From an uncultured Rhodobacterales bacterium (GTDB lineage Bacteria > Pseudomonadota > Alphaproteobacteria > Rhodobacterales > Rhodobacteraceae): a DNA stretch of 64,000 nt. Below are positions 8,571-43,334 of the stretch, one piece after another. Position numbers and translations under genes: made by a program. Under the pieces are notes generated by a model. That model made no database searches. It was not told the origin of the DNA and saw only the letters and a list, made by a program, of their open reading frames with translations. Location of the stretch: contig CAIMWI010000036.1 of the NCBI GenBank assembly GCA_903845215.1, positions 52,978 through 116,977 on the forward strand, in the 5' to 3' direction. Every line of letters begins with the position of its first letter. Within the stretch, counting starts at the first letter, position 1.

Positions 8571-8724
8571 AGGATTCTGTGGTTTCGCGGGCCTTAAACG
8601 GCGTTACAGGACGCCCAATAAAGGTGCCTTCATATACTTTGATAGCGATCTGACCATCCCCAAGCTCTTTGAGGAATGTTCCCTGAATGTAAACGCTGCT
8701 GCCGATTGTTATCGTTCTAAGCAT
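8569..8724 (-). CDS. Small uncharacterised protein (51 aa), absent from the supplied ORF track
   Basis: Translation MLRTITIGSSVYIQGTFLKELGDGQIAIKVYEGTFIGRPVTPFKARETTES; purine-rich AGGGG upstream; stop abuts the terminator. Confidence 0.55.
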   Translation of the reverse strand: MLRTITIGSSVYIQGTFLKELGDGQIAIKVYEGTFIGRPVTPFKARETTES

Positions 8725-8863
8725 GGCCCCTGCTTCACTTCATTTAGGAGCATCCTATGGCGCAAAAGCCGCCGCGTAAATCTGCGCTTTGGGTGGTTTG
8801 TTCACTCTTAAGGTCACTGCAATGCCCCAAAGTTGCAAGACGTTCTTCATGCGCCGCTGTGGG

Positions 8864-9262
8864 TTACAGCCAGTCGCGCAAGATGGGGATAAGCGGGATA
8901 TCAGCCGGCGGCATGGGATAATCGCGCAAACGGTCGGGCCTAACCCAAGCCAGCGTCTGCCCCTCACGCGGGTTGGGCACTCCCTCCCAGCGTCGGCAGG
9001 CAAACAGCGGCATAAGCAGGTGAAAGCGTTCGTAGGCGTGGCTGGCGAAGGTCAGCGGCGCGAGACAGCTTTGCCAGGTGTTAATGCCCAACTCTTCGTG
9101 CAATTCGCGGATCAGCGCAGCTTCGGGGGTTTCCCCCGCCTCGACCTTGCCACCTGGAAACTCCCACAGTCCCGCCATCGACTTGCCCTCGGGCCGTTGC
9201 GCCAACAGAACGCGGCCGTCAGCATCTATCAAAGCCACAGCCGCGACAAGAAGGATGGTCAT
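8864..9262 (-). CDS. mutT: MutT/NUDIX 8-oxo-dGTP diphosphatase
   Basis: Nudix box GGKVEAGETPEAALIRELHEELG. Confidence 0.92.
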   Translation of the reverse strand: MTILLVAAVALIDADGRVLLAQRPEGKSMAGLWEFPGGKVEAGETPEAALIRELHEELGINTWQSCLAPLTFASHAYERFHLLMPLFACRRWEGVPNPREGQTLAWVRPDRLRDYPMPPADIPLIPILRDWL

Positions 9263-35120: not shown

Positions 35121-36125
35121 TTAGGGGATCAGGCCCACGGCTTTCAGCACCGATTGCGGGGCTGGGCTGCGCCAGATACGCTGAAAGCTTTCCACCACAT
35201 TCTCTCGGGTGACTGAGATGCCGGGCAAAGCGATCCAGGCCGGGGTCAGGCGGTTGAGAAGGGTCAAGATCGTGGTTTGGGCGGCTGCAACCCCTTGCAG
35301 GTAAGGCTGTTGGGCCGCGATCACGGCAAAGGGGGCACCTTGGGCAAGGCCGATGGCGACCTGTTCGCCAAGATCGACAGTCGCCATCGCGATGGGTTTT
35401 TTGGAGCGCATCAAGACCTCGGCCGCGTGCAGGGCGGGCGTGTCCCATACCACAAACAGGCCCGCAAGGTCCGGATGCACCGCCAACAAAGCCTCGGTTT
35501 TGGGAGCGGCTTCTTCGATGCGGGCAAAGGCTTCGTGGCAGATCGTCACATCGGGGCGGCGGGTTTGCATCCATTGGGAAAAGGCAATTTCACGCTCGTT
35601 GGTGGCGAAGAAATCCGCAGCATAGCCCAGCAGCCCCACTTGGCACCCTTGCGGCAGATGCGGCGACAGGCCTTCGGCGGCAATCAGGCCAAGGCCGAAA
35701 TTGTCGGCCGAAACCAAAGTGCCATAGTGGTTACCCGGCAGCAATCCGGTGGGCGCATTGTCCAAAAGGATCAGCTTGATACCGGCTTCAGCCAAACGCG
35801 CATGGGCCATTGCCACCTCTTGGTTGGCAACTGGCAAAGAGATCACCGCATCTGGCTTTTGCGCCAAAAGATCGTCCAGCGCCTTGACCTGCTCGGACGG
35901 TGAAAAGCCGCAATCAATCACACGGGTGACAGCCGTGGCACAATCGCCCAATACCCCTACAATCCCTGACAGTTGCTGGCGCGCCCAATCACTTTCCAGC
36001 GTGTGCAACACCACGGCCACGCGAAACGCCCGCGCTTTGGCCGCAGCCCTGTCTTCGGGCAGCAAGGTCACGCGTTCAGGCGGGGCGGCACGTTCGCCAT
36101 GAGGGCCAAGGCCAGAGATCGTCAT
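35121..36125 (-). CDS. Periplasmic-binding-protein-like sugar-binding protein lacking a signal peptide
   Basis: Shares YGTLVSADNFG, AADFFAT, VVWDTPA, TVDLGEQVAI, AAQQPYLQG with the SBP at 38503-39615; hydrophilic N-terminus. Confidence 0.78.
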   Translation of the reverse strand: MTISGLGPHGERAAPPERVTLLPEDRAAAKARAFRVAVVLHTLESDWARQQLSGIVGVLGDCATAVTRVIDCGFSPSEQVKALDDLLAQKPDAVISLPVANQEVAMAHARLAEAGIKLILLDNAPTGLLPGNHYGTLVSADNFGLGLIAAEGLSPHLPQGCQVGLLGYAADFFATNEREIAFSQWMQTRRPDVTICHEAFARIEEAAPKTEALLAVHPDLAGLFVVWDTPALHAAEVLMRSKKPIAMATVDLGEQVAIGLAQGAPFAVIAAQQPYLQGVAAAQTTILTLLNRLTPAWIALPGISVTRENVVESFQRIWRSPAPQSVLKAVGLIP

Positions 36126-37477
36126 ATCGCACCTCGCGACGGGGGCGGAGAGAGAGCGGGCGGTGGCGGGGCCATATCCAACGCCTCACGAAAGGACGCA
36201 AAGGCAGGGTGTTTGAGCGGGCTGCCCTGCATAATCCAATCCTTCAGAAATTCAGGCGCAAAAAGCAATTCCGCCCCCACCCGCGCCGCGCCGACCAAAC
36301 CAGCCGACGATCCCATTTGGCTGCGGATGATCCGCAGATCACGGGTAACCAAGGGATGGCTTGCCCCGTAAACCGCCTCGCGCACCGCGGCGAGGATGAT
36401 GTCGTTGGTCTGCATGATTGCGCCTGACAGCACGATCACCTCGGGGTTCAGCGTGTTGGTCAGGGTCGCCACCACTTGGCCAATCAAGCGGCCCGATGTG
36501 GTCAGAATTTCCATACAGGCTGCATCTCCCATCTGCGCCGCTTGCGCCACGTCGATTGCGCTAATCTCTCCGCCCCGCCGCAGCTGATCGGCCAAAAAGG
36601 CGCTGCGGCCTGTTTCCGCCGCCAAGCGCCCCTCGCGCAGGATCATGTCCGACCCCGCCATCGCATCCAGCGTGCCAGAGCGGTCACCCTGATGCACTGG
36701 CAAGGCACCAATTAATCCCGTCGCCCCCTGCGCCCCGCGAAATAGCCGCCCCTCCGACACGATCCCCGCGCCAATCCGACGCCCGACCTTGATGAACAGC
36801 ATGGACCCAAGGCCCTGCCCTGCGCCGCCATGCAATTCGCCCATCGTCATCGTATCGACCGAAGAGCGCATCCAAACCGGGGCGCCAAAGGTGCGGGTCA
36901 GCATTTCGACCAGCGTAAATCCCTCCCATGCGGGCAAAACGGCTGGCGTGCGCGATAGAAAATCACCGACTGCCCCCGGCACAGTGCCCGGAACCGATAA
37001 GGATATGCCCCACAGGCCCGCCGGCGATGCCTGCCTGTCCAATGACCAGCGCAACAAGGTGATCAGACGTTCTGCCAGGGCCTGTGGCGGGGCTGTCAGT
37101 TCAAAAGCTTCGTGGTGTTCGGTCAAAAGCTTGCCCGATAGGTCCGCAACGCCCACGCCCAGCGCTGTCTGATCCAGCGTGGCCACCAGCACCCGCCCCT
37201 GCTTGGCCGCAAGCCGCACCAAGCGCGGCGCGCGGCCACCCGTGGCCGTGCCCAATTCGCTTTCATCAATCAGGCCCAGATCGGCCAGCATGGTCAGCCT
37301 GTCAGACACCACGGCACGGCCCAAATCGCTTTTACGCTCTAACTCATGGCGGGTTGTTGGGTCATCGGCGCGAATCAGGTTCAGCAGATCAACCAGCGAC
37401 GGCGCAGCCGTTTCCGCCACGCGGGGCCGCCCTTTGCCCCGTGCCAATCCGGAAATCTCGGTCAGGTCTTGCGCCAT
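36122..37477 (-). CDS. ROK-family transcriptional regulator
   Basis: N-terminal wHTH; GELHGGAGQGLGSMLFIKVGRRIGAGIVSEGRLFRGAQGATG; overlaps SBP-like gene by 4 bp. Confidence 0.9.
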   Translation of the reverse strand: MAQDLTEISGLARGKGRPRVAETAAPSLVDLLNLIRADDPTTRHELERKSDLGRAVVSDRLTMLADLGLIDESELGTATGGRAPRLVRLAAKQGRVLVATLDQTALGVGVADLSGKLLTEHHEAFELTAPPQALAERLITLLRWSLDRQASPAGLWGISLSVPGTVPGAVGDFLSRTPAVLPAWEGFTLVEMLTRTFGAPVWMRSSVDTMTMGELHGGAGQGLGSMLFIKVGRRIGAGIVSEGRLFRGAQGATGLIGALPVHQGDRSGTLDAMAGSDMILREGRLAAETGRSAFLADQLRRGGEISAIDVAQAAQMGDAACMEILTTSGRLIGQVVATLTNTLNPEVIVLSGAIMQTNDIILAAVREAVYGASHPLVTRDLRIIRSQMGSSAGLVGAARVGAELLFAPEFLKDWIMQGSPLKHPAFASFREALDMAPPPPALSPPPSRGAI

Positions 37478-37529
37478 GTCTCCTCCGTTTTTCCTTGATA
37501 AATCGGGATGTTCGCCTGATCAAGCCGAT

Positions 37530-37554
37530 ACTTTTGTTTTTATTCTGCAAAAGT
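37530..37554. promoter_or_regulatory. Candidate ROK operator in divergent promoter region
   Basis: ACTTTTG-N11-CAAAAGT perfect inverted repeat. Confidence 0.5.
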
Positions 37555-37650
37555 AATGCTCGTTATTATGAAAATATATTGACCTAACGCGAAAAACGGC
37601 ATTACAAAGCCCACATCGGCTGGAGGGCCGGTGCAAAGGAGGAGGGGAAC

Positions 37651-38463
37651 ATGACAGCTTGGAAGCTGGCCTATCACGCCAATTGCTGGGGTGCGCTTGG
37701 CGGGGATGCGGTGGGGGTGACCTCGATCACGCAGCTGGCCTACCGCACCTTTGGCCAAATGGACCGTGCCTTTGCCGAGATCGCAGCGGCAGGATATGAA
37801 GGGGTCGAGGTGTTTGACGGCAACCTTCTTGACCATTCCGCTGCCGCTTTTCGCAGCCTGCTGGCCAAATCGGGGCTAGAACTCGTTGCGGCCTATGCCG
37901 GCGGCAATTTCATCTTTGACGACATCCTGCCCGAAGAACTGGCCCGCGTGACCCGTGCTACCGACCGCGCGGCCGAACTGGGCGCGACGCATCTGGTGGT
38001 GGGCGGCGGGGCCAAGCGCTTTGATGGCATCCGCGAAAGTGATTACCACAAGCTGGCTGCCGCTTTGGACCGTGTGAAAGACATAGGTGACGCGCGCGGC
38101 CTGCGGGCGCATTACCACCCGCATCTGTCAACCATCGTCGAAGGGCCGAAGTCCGTTGCCAAGATCTTCGATCTGACTGCCATCGATTTTTGTCCCGACA
38201 CCGCCCATCTTGCGGCGGCAGGGGGCGATCCGGCGCAGCTGATCCGCGACCATGCGGCGCGGATATCTTATGTCCATTTGAAGGGCTTCCAGCGCGATCC
38301 CTTCGCCTTCACCCCGCTGGATCGCGGCGATATACCGACCGGCCCGATCCTGCAGGCCCTGCGTGACACCGGCTATCAAGGCTGGATTTGCGCAGAACTT
38401 GATGCCTGGCCCGACCCCGCCGAAGGGGCACGGATCAGCATGCAAACCTTGAAAAGCCACTGA
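37651..38463 (+). CDS. Sugar phosphate isomerase/epimerase (xylose isomerase-like TIM barrel)
   Basis: AGYEGVEVFDGNL, RAHYHPHLSTIVEG, IDFCPDTAHLAAAGGDP, YVHLKGFQ. Confidence 0.87.
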   Translation: MTAWKLAYHANCWGALGGDAVGVTSITQLAYRTFGQMDRAFAEIAAAGYEGVEVFDGNLLDHSAAAFRSLLAKSGLELVAAYAGGNFIFDDILPEELARVTRATDRAAELGATHLVVGGGAKRFDGIRESDYHKLAAALDRVKDIGDARGLRAHYHPHLSTIVEGPKSVAKIFDLTAIDFCPDTAHLAAAGGDPAQLIRDHAARISYVHLKGFQRDPFAFTPLDRGDIPTGPILQALRDTGYQGWICAELDAWPDPAEGARISMQTLKSH

Positions 38464-38502: not shown

Positions 38503-39615
38503 ATGATTACTAGACGCAGCCTAATGGGCGGCGCGGCTCTGCTTGCGCTGATGACCGTTGCAGCCCATGCCACGCCGGACGAGGCCTTGGCCAAGCTGGT
38601 GGACAGCGTGCTGTCCAAAGGCCCGAACGGCGAGGACCCCGCGCCCGCCTCGGCTGTCAGCCTGACCGATGACGAATTGGCACAGATCAAGGCGATGAAG
38701 GCCACCGCCGCCATCGTCATGCACATCGGTGGTAATGACTGGAGCAATGCGCAAATCAACGGCTTGCAGACCCAGTTCGCCGCCATGGGCATCGAAGTGA
38801 TCGCTGTGACCGATGCGGGATTTAAGCCTGAAAAGCAGGTCTCGGACATCGAAACGATCATGGCGCAAAAGCCCTCGATCATCGTGTCGATCCCGACGGA
38901 TCCTTCTGCAACCGCCTCGGCCTATAAGGCCGCTGCCGATGCGGGCGTTAAGATCGTGTTCATGGACAACGTGGCCGCAGGTATGACGGCGGGCAAAGAC
39001 TATGTCTCGGTCGTCTCGGCTGACAACTACGGCAACGGCGTCGCCTCGGCCCATCTGATGGCCAAGGCGCTGAATGGTGCTGGCAATATCGGCTTGGTCT
39101 TCCACGCCGCCGATTTCTTTGTGACGCGCCAGCGCTACGAGGCATTCAAGGCGACGATCACCTCTGACTATCCCGACATCAAGATCGTGGACGAGCAGGG
39201 CATCGGCGGGCCCGACTTTTCGGGCGATGCAGAAAAGGCGGCAGGGGCAATGTTGACCTCTCACCCCGAAATTCAGGGGATCTGGGCGGTGTGGGACATG
39301 CCGGCCGAGGGCGTGATTTCGGCGGCCCGCAATGCTGGTCGCGATGATCTGATCATCACGACCTGTGATCTGGGCGAAAACGTCGCAATCTCTATGGCGC
39401 AGAACGGCTTTGTCAAAGGTCTGGGCGCGCAGCGTCCCTATGACGCCGGGATCGTGGAAGCCATGCTTGCAGGCTATGGCCTTTTGGGCAAACCCGCCCC
39501 GGCCTTTGTCGCCCTGCCCGCCCTGCCGGTGTCGCATGACACCCTGCTGGAGGCTTGGACGCAGGTCTATTCGACAGAAGCCACCGACAACATCAAGAAC
39601 TCGATGGTGAACTGA
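38503..39615 (+). CDS. Sugar ABC transporter substrate-binding protein
   Basis: Signal peptide MITRRSLMGGAALLALMTVAAHA; peripla_BP_4-like. Confidence 0.9.
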   Translation: MITRRSLMGGAALLALMTVAAHATPDEALAKLVDSVLSKGPNGEDPAPASAVSLTDDELAQIKAMKATAAIVMHIGGNDWSNAQINGLQTQFAAMGIEVIAVTDAGFKPEKQVSDIETIMAQKPSIIVSIPTDPSATASAYKAAADAGVKIVFMDNVAAGMTAGKDYVSVVSADNYGNGVASAHLMAKALNGAGNIGLVFHAADFFVTRQRYEAFKATITSDYPDIKIVDEQGIGGPDFSGDAEKAAGAMLTSHPEIQGIWAVWDMPAEGVISAARNAGRDDLIITTCDLGENVAISMAQNGFVKGLGAQRPYDAGIVEAMLAGYGLLGKPAPAFVALPALPVSHDTLLEAWTQVYSTEATDNIKNSMVN

Positions 39616-39675: not shown

Positions 39676-40850
39676 ATGATGATGACCCAAGTGATGAACG
39701 TCGCCATGATCGGCGGCGGGTTCATGGGCAAGGCCCATGCCATGGCCTATGCCGCCATGCCCATGTTCTTCTGGCCCGCCCCCGCCATCCCGCACCGCAA
39801 AGTTGTGGTCGATGTGACCGACAGCGCCGCCGAAACCGCCCGCCAACGCTTTGGCTTTGATGAATCGTCATCAGACTGGCGCGCCGTGATTGCCCGCCCC
39901 GATATCGACGTGGTCGATATCTGCACCCCCAACAATGTGCACGCCGAGATTGCGATTGCTGCCGCCCAAGCTGGCAAACACATCATCTGCGAAAAGCCCC
40001 TTGCCCGCACTGTGGAGGAGGCCCGCGCCATGACACAGGCCGTGGCCGACGCCGGTGTGATCCACATGGTGGCCTTTAACTACCGCCGCACGCCCGCTGT
40101 GGCTTTGGCCAGGAAATACATCGACGAAGGCCGTATTGGCCGCATTTTGAACTTTCGCGGCACCTATCTGCAAGATTGGTCCGCCGATGAAAACGGCCCG
40201 CTGTCTTGGCGCTTTCAAAAGAAAATCGCAGGGTCTGGCACGTGGGGGATATTGGCACCCATGTGGTCGATCTGGCGCATTATCTGGTAGGCCCCATCGC
40301 TGCGGTGAATGCTATGACGCGCACCTATGTGAAAACCCGCCCCCTGCAACAAGGCGGGGTCGATAAGTTGGGCGCTTCTGACAAATCTGCCGGCGGTGAG
40401 CGGGCCGAGGTGGATGTGGATGACGAAGTTGTCTCGATGCTGAAATTTGAAAGCGGCGCGATAGGCTCGCTAGAGGCGACACGCAACGCTTGGGGGCGCA
40501 ACAACTTTATCACGCTGGAAATTCACGGCACCAAAGGGTCCATCGCGTTCAACTACGAGCGGCGAGATGAATTGCAGGTGATGTTCGCAGACGACCCCGC
40601 AGACGCGCGCGGCTTTCGCACCGTGTATACAGGGCCCGCGCATCCTTATGGCGCGGGGCTTTGGCCGATCCCGGGGCTGGGGATTGGGTATTCCGAAACC
40701 AAGATCGTCGAGTGCCACGATTTTTTTGCAGCCATCGCTTCAGGCAAACAGCCCAGCCCGAATTTCAACGATGGGCTGGCCTGCGAACTGGTCGCCGACG
40801 CCCTGCTGCGGTCGGGCGAAACCGGGTTGTGGGAGGCTGTCGGCCAATGA
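39676..40850 (+). pseudogene. Gfo/Idh/MocA-family oxidoreductase, interrupted by an apparent 1-nt deletion at 40244-40248
   Basis: N-terminal ORF ends ...AGSGTWGILAPMW; overlapping frame continues GDIGTHVVDLAHYLVGPIAAVN; one extra G restores GTWGDIGTHVVDLAHY. Confidence 0.88.
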
Positions 40851-42400
40851 CCGCTGTTGTCATGAAGGGCATTTCCAAGGCCTTTGGCGGTGTCAAAGCC
40901 TTGGACAACGTGGACTTCGCCGTTCTCCCCGGCGAAATCCACGCCCTTCTTGGCGGCAACGGGGCGGGCAAGTCGACCATTTTAAAGGTGCTGAACGGGG
41001 TACATCGGCCTGATGCTGGCACCATCACGGTGGGGGGTGTGGCGCTGACCACCCACACGCCCGAAGCCTCGCGGGCCGCAGGCATCGCCATGAACTTTCA
41101 AGAGATGAGCTTGATCCCCACCCTAACCGTGGCGCAGAATATCTATCTCACCCGCGAAGCGCGCACCCCGCGCGGCCTTCTGGATGATGCGGCCTGCGAG
41201 GCTAAGGCGGCCGACATCTTCGCCATGCTAGAGGTCAAGGTTGACCCTAAGGCGATCGTCAGCACCCTAGGTGCAGGCCAAAAGCAACTGACAGAGATTG
41301 CCAAGGCAATCAGCCAGTCTTCCAAGGTGTTGATCCTTGATGAACCCTCGACAGCTTTGGCGGTGTCGGATGTGGAACGCTTGTTCACCTTTCTGCGCAA
41401 GCTAAAAGCGCAGGGGGTGGCGGTGATCTATGTCAGCCACCGCATGGACGAAATCGCCCGCATTGCCGACCGCGCCACGATTTTGCGGGACGGCAAGCAT
41501 GTCATCACAGCGCCGATGTCAGAGCTGCCGATTGATATGATGATCGAACATATCGTGGGCAAACGCTCGAAGGGATTGGCCGATGTGCAGCGCGGCGATG
41601 CCACGCGCGGTGAGGTTTTGCTAGAGGCGCGAGGGGTGAGTGGTGCGCATAAGCCCAAGGATGTCAGCTTTACCCTGCATCGAGGCGAGGTTTTGGGCTT
41701 GGCGGGGCTTTTGGGCTCTGGCCGCTCGTCGCTTGCGCGGGTGATTGCGGGCATCGAACCCGCCACGGCGGGAGAATTGCGCATTCGCGGTGCAGCGGCG
41801 GCAATCCGCAAGCCGTCAGATGCCATCGCCGCAGGGGTGGCTTTGGTGCCCGAAGCGCGGGCGACCCAAGGGATTATTCCAGCGCATTCGGTGGCGGCGA
41901 ACATCGTGCTGTCAGTGCTTGGCCACATTTCGGCCAAAGGTGTCGTCAACCGCCCCAAGGCGCAGCAAATCACGGATGACATGATCGCGCGGCTGCAAAT
42001 CAAAACCGCCAGCCGCGATCATGCGGTATCAACCCTGTCGGGCGGCAACCAGCAAAAGGTGGTGATCGGCAAGTGGCTGGCCACCGACCCCGACATTCTG
42101 GTGCTGGATGAACCCACAGCCGGCATCGATATCGGGTCTAAATCCGAAATCATCCGGCTGGTGCGCAACCTTGCTGCACAGGGCAAGGGCATCGTGATGA
42201 TCTCTTCGGAACTGTCAGAACTTCTCACCGCCTGCGACCGCATCCTTGTGATGGCCGATGGCCGCGCCCATCAGATGATCGACCGCGCCGCGCTGGATGA
42301 CCCCGCCGACCCTGACCCCGGCCACCGCCTGCAAGCGGCCGAGCGCCAGTTGCAAATCGAAATCCAAAAAGCCCTTTCCCAGGAGATTCCCCATGGCTAA
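40847..42400 (+). CDS. Sugar ABC transporter ATP-binding protein (two ABC domains, RbsA/XylG-like)
   Basis: GGNGAGKSTILKVL, LDEPSTALA, LSGGNQQKVVIGKWL, LDEPTAGIDIG. Confidence 0.94.
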   Translation: MTAVVMKGISKAFGGVKALDNVDFAVLPGEIHALLGGNGAGKSTILKVLNGVHRPDAGTITVGGVALTTHTPEASRAAGIAMNFQEMSLIPTLTVAQNIYLTREARTPRGLLDDAACEAKAADIFAMLEVKVDPKAIVSTLGAGQKQLTEIAKAISQSSKVLILDEPSTALAVSDVERLFTFLRKLKAQGVAVIYVSHRMDEIARIADRATILRDGKHVITAPMSELPIDMMIEHIVGKRSKGLADVQRGDATRGEVLLEARGVSGAHKPKDVSFTLHRGEVLGLAGLLGSGRSSLARVIAGIEPATAGELRIRGAAAAIRKPSDAIAAGVALVPEARATQGIIPAHSVAANIVLSVLGHISAKGVVNRPKAQQITDDMIARLQIKTASRDHAVSTLSGGNQQKVVIGKWLATDPDILVLDEPTAGIDIGSKSEIIRLVRNLAAQGKGIVMISSELSELLTACDRILVMADGRAHQMIDRAALDDPADPDPGHRLQAAERQLQIEIQKALSQEIPHG

Positions 42401-43334
42401 GCGCGCGACCTTCCTCGCCAACTGGCGGCAAAACATCATCTATATCGGCTTTGTGGTGATCTTTGTGATCTTCGCGCTGACGCTCAGCCATAAGGGCTTT
42501 TTGAACCCGACCAATCTTTTGAACATCATCCGCCAAACGGCGATGATCGCGGTGATGGCGGTGGCCATGACTTTTGTGCTGGCCAGCGGCGAGATCGACC
42601 TGTCGATTGGCGCGGTGGCGGGGCTGACGACTGTCACGGTCGCCATGACCATAGCGGTTGCGGGGCCTTTTGCGGGTGTTTTGGCGGGGGTTGCCACGGG
42701 CATCGCGGTAGGCTGCTTTAACGGCTGGCTGACCACGCGCATCGGCATTCCGTCTTTTCTGACCACGCTGGCCATGATGGGAATTGCCAAAGGGGTCGCC
42801 ATGTGGATATCGGCCACCGCCGCTGTGCCGATCCTGTCGCCGGGATATTCGTGGGTCTTTGGCGGCGGTTCGATTGGCCCTGTTCCGGTGCTGTTGTTTT
42901 GGATGTTGGTGGCTGCGGCATCGGGCCATTTCGTCTTGCGCCGCACCAGCTTTGGCCGCCGCGTGCTGGCAACGGGCGGCGGTGAAACCGCGGCGCGCTA
43001 TTCCGGCATCGACACCGCCAACATCAAGTTCAAGGTGCTGATCGTGTCTTCATCCGCCGCCGCCATCGCGGGGATGCTGTATGCCGGCCGCTTGCAATCG
43101 GGCCGCTTCCAACTGGGCGAGGGTGACGAATTGTCGGTCATCGCCGCCGCTGTTTTGGGCGGCACCAGCCTGTTTGGCGGCAAAGGCACCGTGGTGGGCA
43201 CCATCGTGGGTGCGCTGATGATCGGGCTGATCAACAATGGGTTGATCCTAATGGGGCTAGAGTTCAGCCAGCAACTGATCGCGCGCGGGGCGATCATCAT
43301 CTTGGCCGTCGCCCTAAGCCAGAAAAGGGCCTGA
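42393..43334 (+). CDS. Sugar ABC transporter permease (RbsC-like)
   Basis: FVLASGEIDLSIGAVAGL, LAAVLGGTSLFGGKGTVVGTIVGAL-type motif. Confidence 0.93.
   Translation: MAKRATFLANWRQNIIYIGFVVIFVIFALTLSHKGFLNPTNLLNIIRQTAMIAVMAVAMTFVLASGEIDLSIGAVAGLTTVTVAMTIAVAGPFAGVLAGVATGIAVGCFNGWLTTRIGIPSFLTTLAMMGIAKGVAMWISATAAVPILSPGYSWVFGGGSIGPVPVLLFWMLVAAASGHFVLRRTSFGRRVLATGGGETAARYSGIDTANIKFKVLIVSSSAAAIAGMLYAGRLQSGRFQLGEGDELSVIAAAVLGGTSLFGGKGTVVGTIVGALMIGLINNGLILMGLEFSQQLIARGAIIILAVALSQKRA

Follow-up and report, generated by a model that had tools for sequence, protein, structure and literature searches.

The 64,000-nucleotide stretch of an uncultured Rhodobacterales genome analysed here (the window; contig CAIMWI010000036.1) carries two overlapping genes whose products we propose to act together as one split transcription regulator: a ROK protein would bind DNA, and a captured sugar-binding protein (SBP) without a signal peptide, here termed cSBP, would do the sensing. 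On the sequence evidence set out below we give this reading a probability of about two in three. The initial annotation had raised the possibility that the captured SBP is a cytosolic co-sensor for the regulator, and this view is supported, at the level of sequence, by several features: the identical presence and absence of the two genes, decay of the ROK sugar site in company with cSBP, conservation of the cSBP pocket, co-evolution of the two proteins, and a conserved operator.

Organization and distribution of the gene pair

Both genes are on the reverse strand. The ROK-domain regulator (36122-37477; 451 aa) has a DNA-binding N-terminus and a degenerate sugar/zinc site; cSBP (35121-36125; 334 aa), the proposed cytosolic ligand-sensing subunit, is a signal-less Peripla_BP_4 sugar-binding protein. 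The open reading frames, and the 4-bp overlap initially described between them, proved exact: the overlap is ATGA (36122-36125, reverse strand), formed by the ROK stop and the cSBP start, a translational coupling that is seen in 15 of 24 loci. The unit is divergent from an operon that includes an exported paralogue of cSBP (38503-39615, forward strand; 370 aa with signal peptide). The kinship of the two proteins, first proposed from a series of shared sequence blocks, is evident from 33% identity over 333 residues (E=1e-59), an alignment within which every one of those blocks falls. Both match PF13407 far above the cut-off, cSBP scoring 92.2 bits against a threshold of 35.1, and ROK matches PF00480 at 102.4 bits (cut-off 22.9). 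No fused ROK-cSBP reading frame was seen among the matches; the helix-turn-helix and the sensor with periplasmic-binding-protein fold are separate reading frames.

We found the pair at 36 loci, in 31 genomes and on 5 plasmids, of Rhodobacteraceae and Rhizobiales. Separate searches of 397 Rhodobacteraceae genomes with ROK and with cSBP returned the identical ten genomes. Among Rhodobacteraceae, the pair is present in the window's genus and in nine others (396 genera sampled). Kaistia and further Rhizobiales carry it too, and it is borne on plasmids or chromids in Paracoccus, Agrobacterium, Rhizobium, Sinorhizobium, Ensifer, Shinella, Mesorhizobium and Ochrobactrum. The class-wide ROK search recovered the window only, because the pair is rare there.

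Lack of a conserved linkage had been named at the outset as evidence that would count against the pairing; the ROK gene lies directly upstream of cSBP in 35 of the 36 loci, and a ROK remnant is present in the 36th. On an Ochrobactrum plasmid (L073, ~8700-9001) just the last third of ROK is left, with cSBP intact and most of the operon missing. At nearly all loci ROK-cSBP diverges from a set of genes encoding a TIM-barrel protein (TIM), the exported SBP, a dehydrogenase, an ABC protein and a permease; at L056 the whole gene set is on one strand, and at L059 there is no adjacent exported SBP. Two Mesorhizobium plasmids (L070, L116) have, in place of the LgdA-like dehydrogenase gene, genes for a GMC oxidoreductase and a gluconate 2-dehydrogenase subunit 3 protein, which suggests a different route of sugar oxidation. 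In Rhodobacteraceae bacterium SC52 (L071, 7148-8453) the exported SBP is apparently broken, 209 aa remaining in frame, and cSBP and ROK are intact. Separately, at three loci (L105, L106, L107) tandem exported SBPs are found near a distant ROK (23-25%) and a conserved gene of 399 aa; these could possibly be another SBP-ROK setting, though there both SBPs have export signals.

Loss of the sugar site in cSBP-linked ROK proteins

The solved regulators Mlc and Lmo0178 align to the window's ROK from residues 30-33, the NagC model aligns to residues 33-400, and the Mlc model also begins at residue 33; a separate helix-turn-helix Pfam match in ROK was not obtained at 1e-3, and the structure model of the protein is of unusable quality (pLDDT 53). 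A basic, AT-hook-like stretch, RGKGRPR, precedes the helix-turn-helix at ROK residues 12-18 and is found in many such ROKs.

The window ROK had been described as apparently lacking the Cys-rich zinc motif of its family, and it does lack it: the Cys loop is deleted. The loss goes further than was noticed, extending to the catalytic/sugar-site Asp and the GxGH His: S205 and S206 replace the N-D pair, and L255 and A258 replace D/E and H. We compared the cSBP-linked proteins, which form one lineage so that their site decay counts as a single evolutionary case, with nine ROKs that have no cSBP, among them the one that accompanies an equivalent operon in Arthrobacter agilis. The Asp of the N-D pair is kept in none of 35 cSBP-linked ROKs, as against 8/9 of the others; the GxGH His and Cys loop are both lost in 31/35, as against 0/9; and the zinc motif, CxCGxxGCxE, is absent from 32 of the 35 and present in all nine. 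The linked proteins that retain this motif, those of L059, L070 and L116, are intermediates in which His and Cys loop are kept and Asp is lost; L058 retains His only. Apparently Asp was the first to be lost, with His and the zinc loop following. It is on balance probable that these proteins represent a class of split regulator, in which ROK handed sugar sensing to a captured cytosolic ABC-transporter SBP by a stepwise decay still visible in living relatives.

Conservation of the cSBP pocket and co-evolution with ROK

The AlphaFold2 model of cSBP is a confident SBP fold, N-terminus included (pLDDT 93.5), closest in a fold search to ribose-type SBPs (E=3e-18). The pocket was mapped by projecting onto cSBP and the exported SBPs those residues which we take to be the ribose contacts of E. 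coli RbsB. Six of the equivalent cSBP residues, D122, N123, R178, W227, D251 and Q272, recur unchanged in the exported SBPs and are nearly invariant across 31 cSBPs and 27 exported SBPs; given these shared residues, cSBP should have kept the ability to bind a sugar that resembles the transporter's. Two positions differ between cSBP and the exported SBP (S45/N78 and F200/I234), and the cSBP ligand may thus differ from that of its exported paralogue.

Within the genus, cSBP, ROK and the exported SBP have dN/dS values of 0.09, 0.08 and 0.065, respectively. Purifying selection acts on cSBP, and its dN/dS value speaks against a pseudogene, a reading that we rejected. Pairwise distances of cSBP and ROK are correlated at 0.96, and their mean distances are equal (0.595 and 0.598), about twice those of SBP and TIM. 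With SBP and TIM distances controlled for, the mirror-tree partial correlation of cSBP with ROK reaches 0.895, or 0.83-0.88 once divergent rows are removed, as against at most 0.56 for the other gene pairs tested; the comparison covered SBP and TIM as operon proteins, and the high cSBP-ROK value can in part reflect the shared transcript and a shared relaxed rate.

Retention of the pocket, and location beside a catabolic operon, would also suit a cytosolic buffer or delivery protein that feeds sugar to the dehydrogenase and shares the ROK transcript without having any regulatory role. We consider this unlikely: in nearly all loci cSBP sits in the transcription unit of the regulator, not in the enzyme operon, its rate tracks that of ROK and not that of the TIM enzyme (partial r = -0.04), and on this view there is no reason why ROK should have lost its sugar site. 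It is decidedly unlikely that ROK is constitutive or does its own sensing at a remodelled site, with cSBP a dispensable paralogue under weak constraint. Confinement of the pairing to one lineage fits such an account, as does partial retention of certain ROK sugar-site positions (E/D at 271), but the low dN/dS of cSBP, the near-invariance of its pocket residues and its pattern of presence and absence, identical to that of ROK, do not. The SBP lineage from which cSBP descends docks with permeases of this kind, which brings to mind control of the transporter from within the cell, with trans-inhibition of permease or ATPase as one example and with ROK sensing something else; this is highly improbable, since it is at the periplasmic face that SBPs dock to a permease, and cSBP co-evolves with ROK rather than with the two operon proteins compared.

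Absence of an export signal and origin of cSBP

The hydrophilic N-terminus initially attributed to cSBP is a property of the whole group: maximum Kyte-Doolittle hydrophobicity, calculated over 11 residues within the first 35 aa, is at most 1.05 in the 31 cSBPs and at least 1.80 in the 27 exported SBPs. The start is conserved among orthologues (M[TS]I.GLGPHGE), and the same motif recurs after the signal peptide of some exported relatives (TVGPQGE, in L014 and L025). An alternative start that adds a signal peptide, the other finding named beforehand as telling against a cytosolic protein, is not available: stops close the cSBP frame 3, 5 and 6 codons upstream in L056, L053 and L054 respectively, and because of this there is no hidden signal peptide. 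That cSBP is exported after all, from a missed start or by another route, as an ordinary second SBP is barely credible, its fold and family being those of exported SBPs but its hydrophilic start, closed upstream frame and ATGA coupling to ROK all opposing it.

The cSBPs form one clade (support 99/97), of single origin. Its nearest sampled relative in the tree is the exported SBP of L066, whose row is long-branched; by score, the nearest are exported SBPs of the L066/L104 type. Descent of cSBP as a recent tandem copy of the adjacent SBP was rejected, as it groups with another exported SBP lineage. In genome G696 the L066-type SBP apparently belongs to the operon itself, because two contigs of that genome, C80 and C52, share a 55-bp end (L059 15521-15575; L066 1-55). 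The simplest account of the origin of cSBP is that an operon SBP was duplicated and then lost its signal peptide.

A conserved operator-like palindrome between the divergent promoters

A 23-bp operator-like palindrome, CTTTTG-N11-CAAAAG (37531-37553; family consensus CTTTTGC-N9-GCAAAAG), lies between two predicted promoters. That of the lgd-like operon (37579-37607, forward strand) has TTGACC (37579-37584) as -35 and TTACAA (37602-37607) as -10 box; that of ROK-cSBP (37495-37523, reverse strand) has TTGATC (37518-37523) and TATCAA (37495-37500), separated by a 17-bp spacer. The operator pattern occurs once in the window, where 0.03 occurrences are expected by chance, and a loose form of it finds four sites genome-wide, the other three without the AT-rich centre. 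Spacing is all but constant: exactly 25 bp separate the palindrome from the operon's TTGAC -35 box in 26/29 loci, the window included, and in 27/28 its distance to the TTG of the -35 box of ROK is 7 bp. A conserved third, partial half-site, TTATGCAnAAA (37562-37578), abuts the operon -35 box; it resembles the left arm of the palindrome and is in the same helical phase (31 bp). Because this geometry is fixed, it supports direct control of both units at the predicted operator by a protein of this locus, most simply ROK. The palindrome is upstream of both -35 boxes, a position that suits activation; the precedent of the family favours repression by ROK.

The divergent operon and the likely ligand

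The operon, on the forward strand, begins with a TIM-barrel sugar isomerase/eliminase (37651-38463; PF01261; possible LgdB1) and continues, after the exported SBP, with a Gfo/Idh/MocA dehydrogenase orthologous to levoglucosan dehydrogenase, LgdA (39676-40850), a sugar ABC transporter ATP-binding protein (40847-42400; the listed frame opens at 40661, with homology from ~40847) and a sugar ABC transporter permease (42297-43334; BPD_transp_2). In this assembly the LgdA-like gene is frameshifted near 40242 by a one-base deletion relative to its intact relative in L061, which could reflect a true loss or an error of assembly. The L061 dehydrogenase aligns with levoglucosan dehydrogenase 6a3f across 385 residues, scoring 600 bits; 6A3I, an entry listed with the same sequence, is the LGDH of Pseudarthrobacter phenanthrenivorans (PMC10066097). 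The lgd clusters described in the same source contain TIM-barrel proteins, ABC transporters, SBPs and ROK regulators, the last of which appear in its neighbour network, and it cites Shinella sumterensis strain MEC087 as a levoglucosan degrader (PMC10066097). The cSBP-ROK pair is present in another strain of S. sumterensis. With a close relative of levoglucosan dehydrogenase encoded in the operon, levoglucosan is the likely ligand. This sugar is imported unphosphorylated, which would make an SBP a natural cytosolic sensor for it.

We picture the split regulator working as follows. ROK would have kept its DNA-binding half and ROK scaffold, its own sugar site being dead, and ligand binding would fall to the signal-less SBP, retained in the cytosol. 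Once the neighbouring ABC transporter had brought in its sugar, most likely levoglucosan but perhaps a close anhydrosugar or the first oxidation product, cSBP would close on it in the cytosol. This change would be relayed, probably through direct contact, to ROK at the palindrome that separates the divergent promoters, switching on the lgd-like operon and adjusting synthesis of the ROK-cSBP pair itself. We infer the physical contact, the identity of the ligand and the direction of the conformational signal, and likewise whether ROK represses without ligand or activates with it.

Relation to known systems

Like NagC/Mlc-type regulators, the window's ROK has an N-terminal DNA-binding region and a ROK domain, with an operator-like inverted repeat near the promoters it would regulate; unlike them, cSBP-linked ROKs have no sugar-site Asp and mostly no GxGH His or zinc-type Cys loop, and always come with an extra, separately encoded sugar-binding protein. 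cSBP in turn shares fold, domain and pocket positions with CUT2-type sugar SBPs (Peripla_BP_4, RbsB-like), but lacks a signal peptide and is encoded with a regulator instead of a transporter. In LacI/RbsR-type repressors a periplasmic-binding-protein fold senses cytosolic sugar for a DNA-binding part, the two forming one chain with a LacI-type helix-turn-helix. The role proposed for cSBP is the same, except that here the DNA-binding part would be a separate ROK protein. Published lgd catabolic clusters resemble the present operon in having the dehydrogenase, TIM-barrel protein, ABC transporter and SBP, with ROK regulators nearby, but the passages of that report cited here describe neither a signal-less SBP nor its regulation (PMC10066097). 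In the relative from Arthrobacter agilis (L084) a ROK is present but no cSBP. We found no precedent for a cytosolic SBP-ROK pair in the open-licence literature.

Most ROK and LacI-type regulators sense sugars within one chain. If the split-regulator reading is true, a transport protein can supply a regulator with sugar sensing in the form of a separate subunit, an unusual design for a bacterial sensor, and the intermediates among the ROKs allow the order of events to be tested. Signal-less SBPs are easily written off as annotation errors; cSBP is no such error. Levoglucosan is a biomass-burning sugar of environmental and biotechnological interest, and the pair is a candidate regulator of its use by alphaproteobacteria and, if so, a ready biosensor part.
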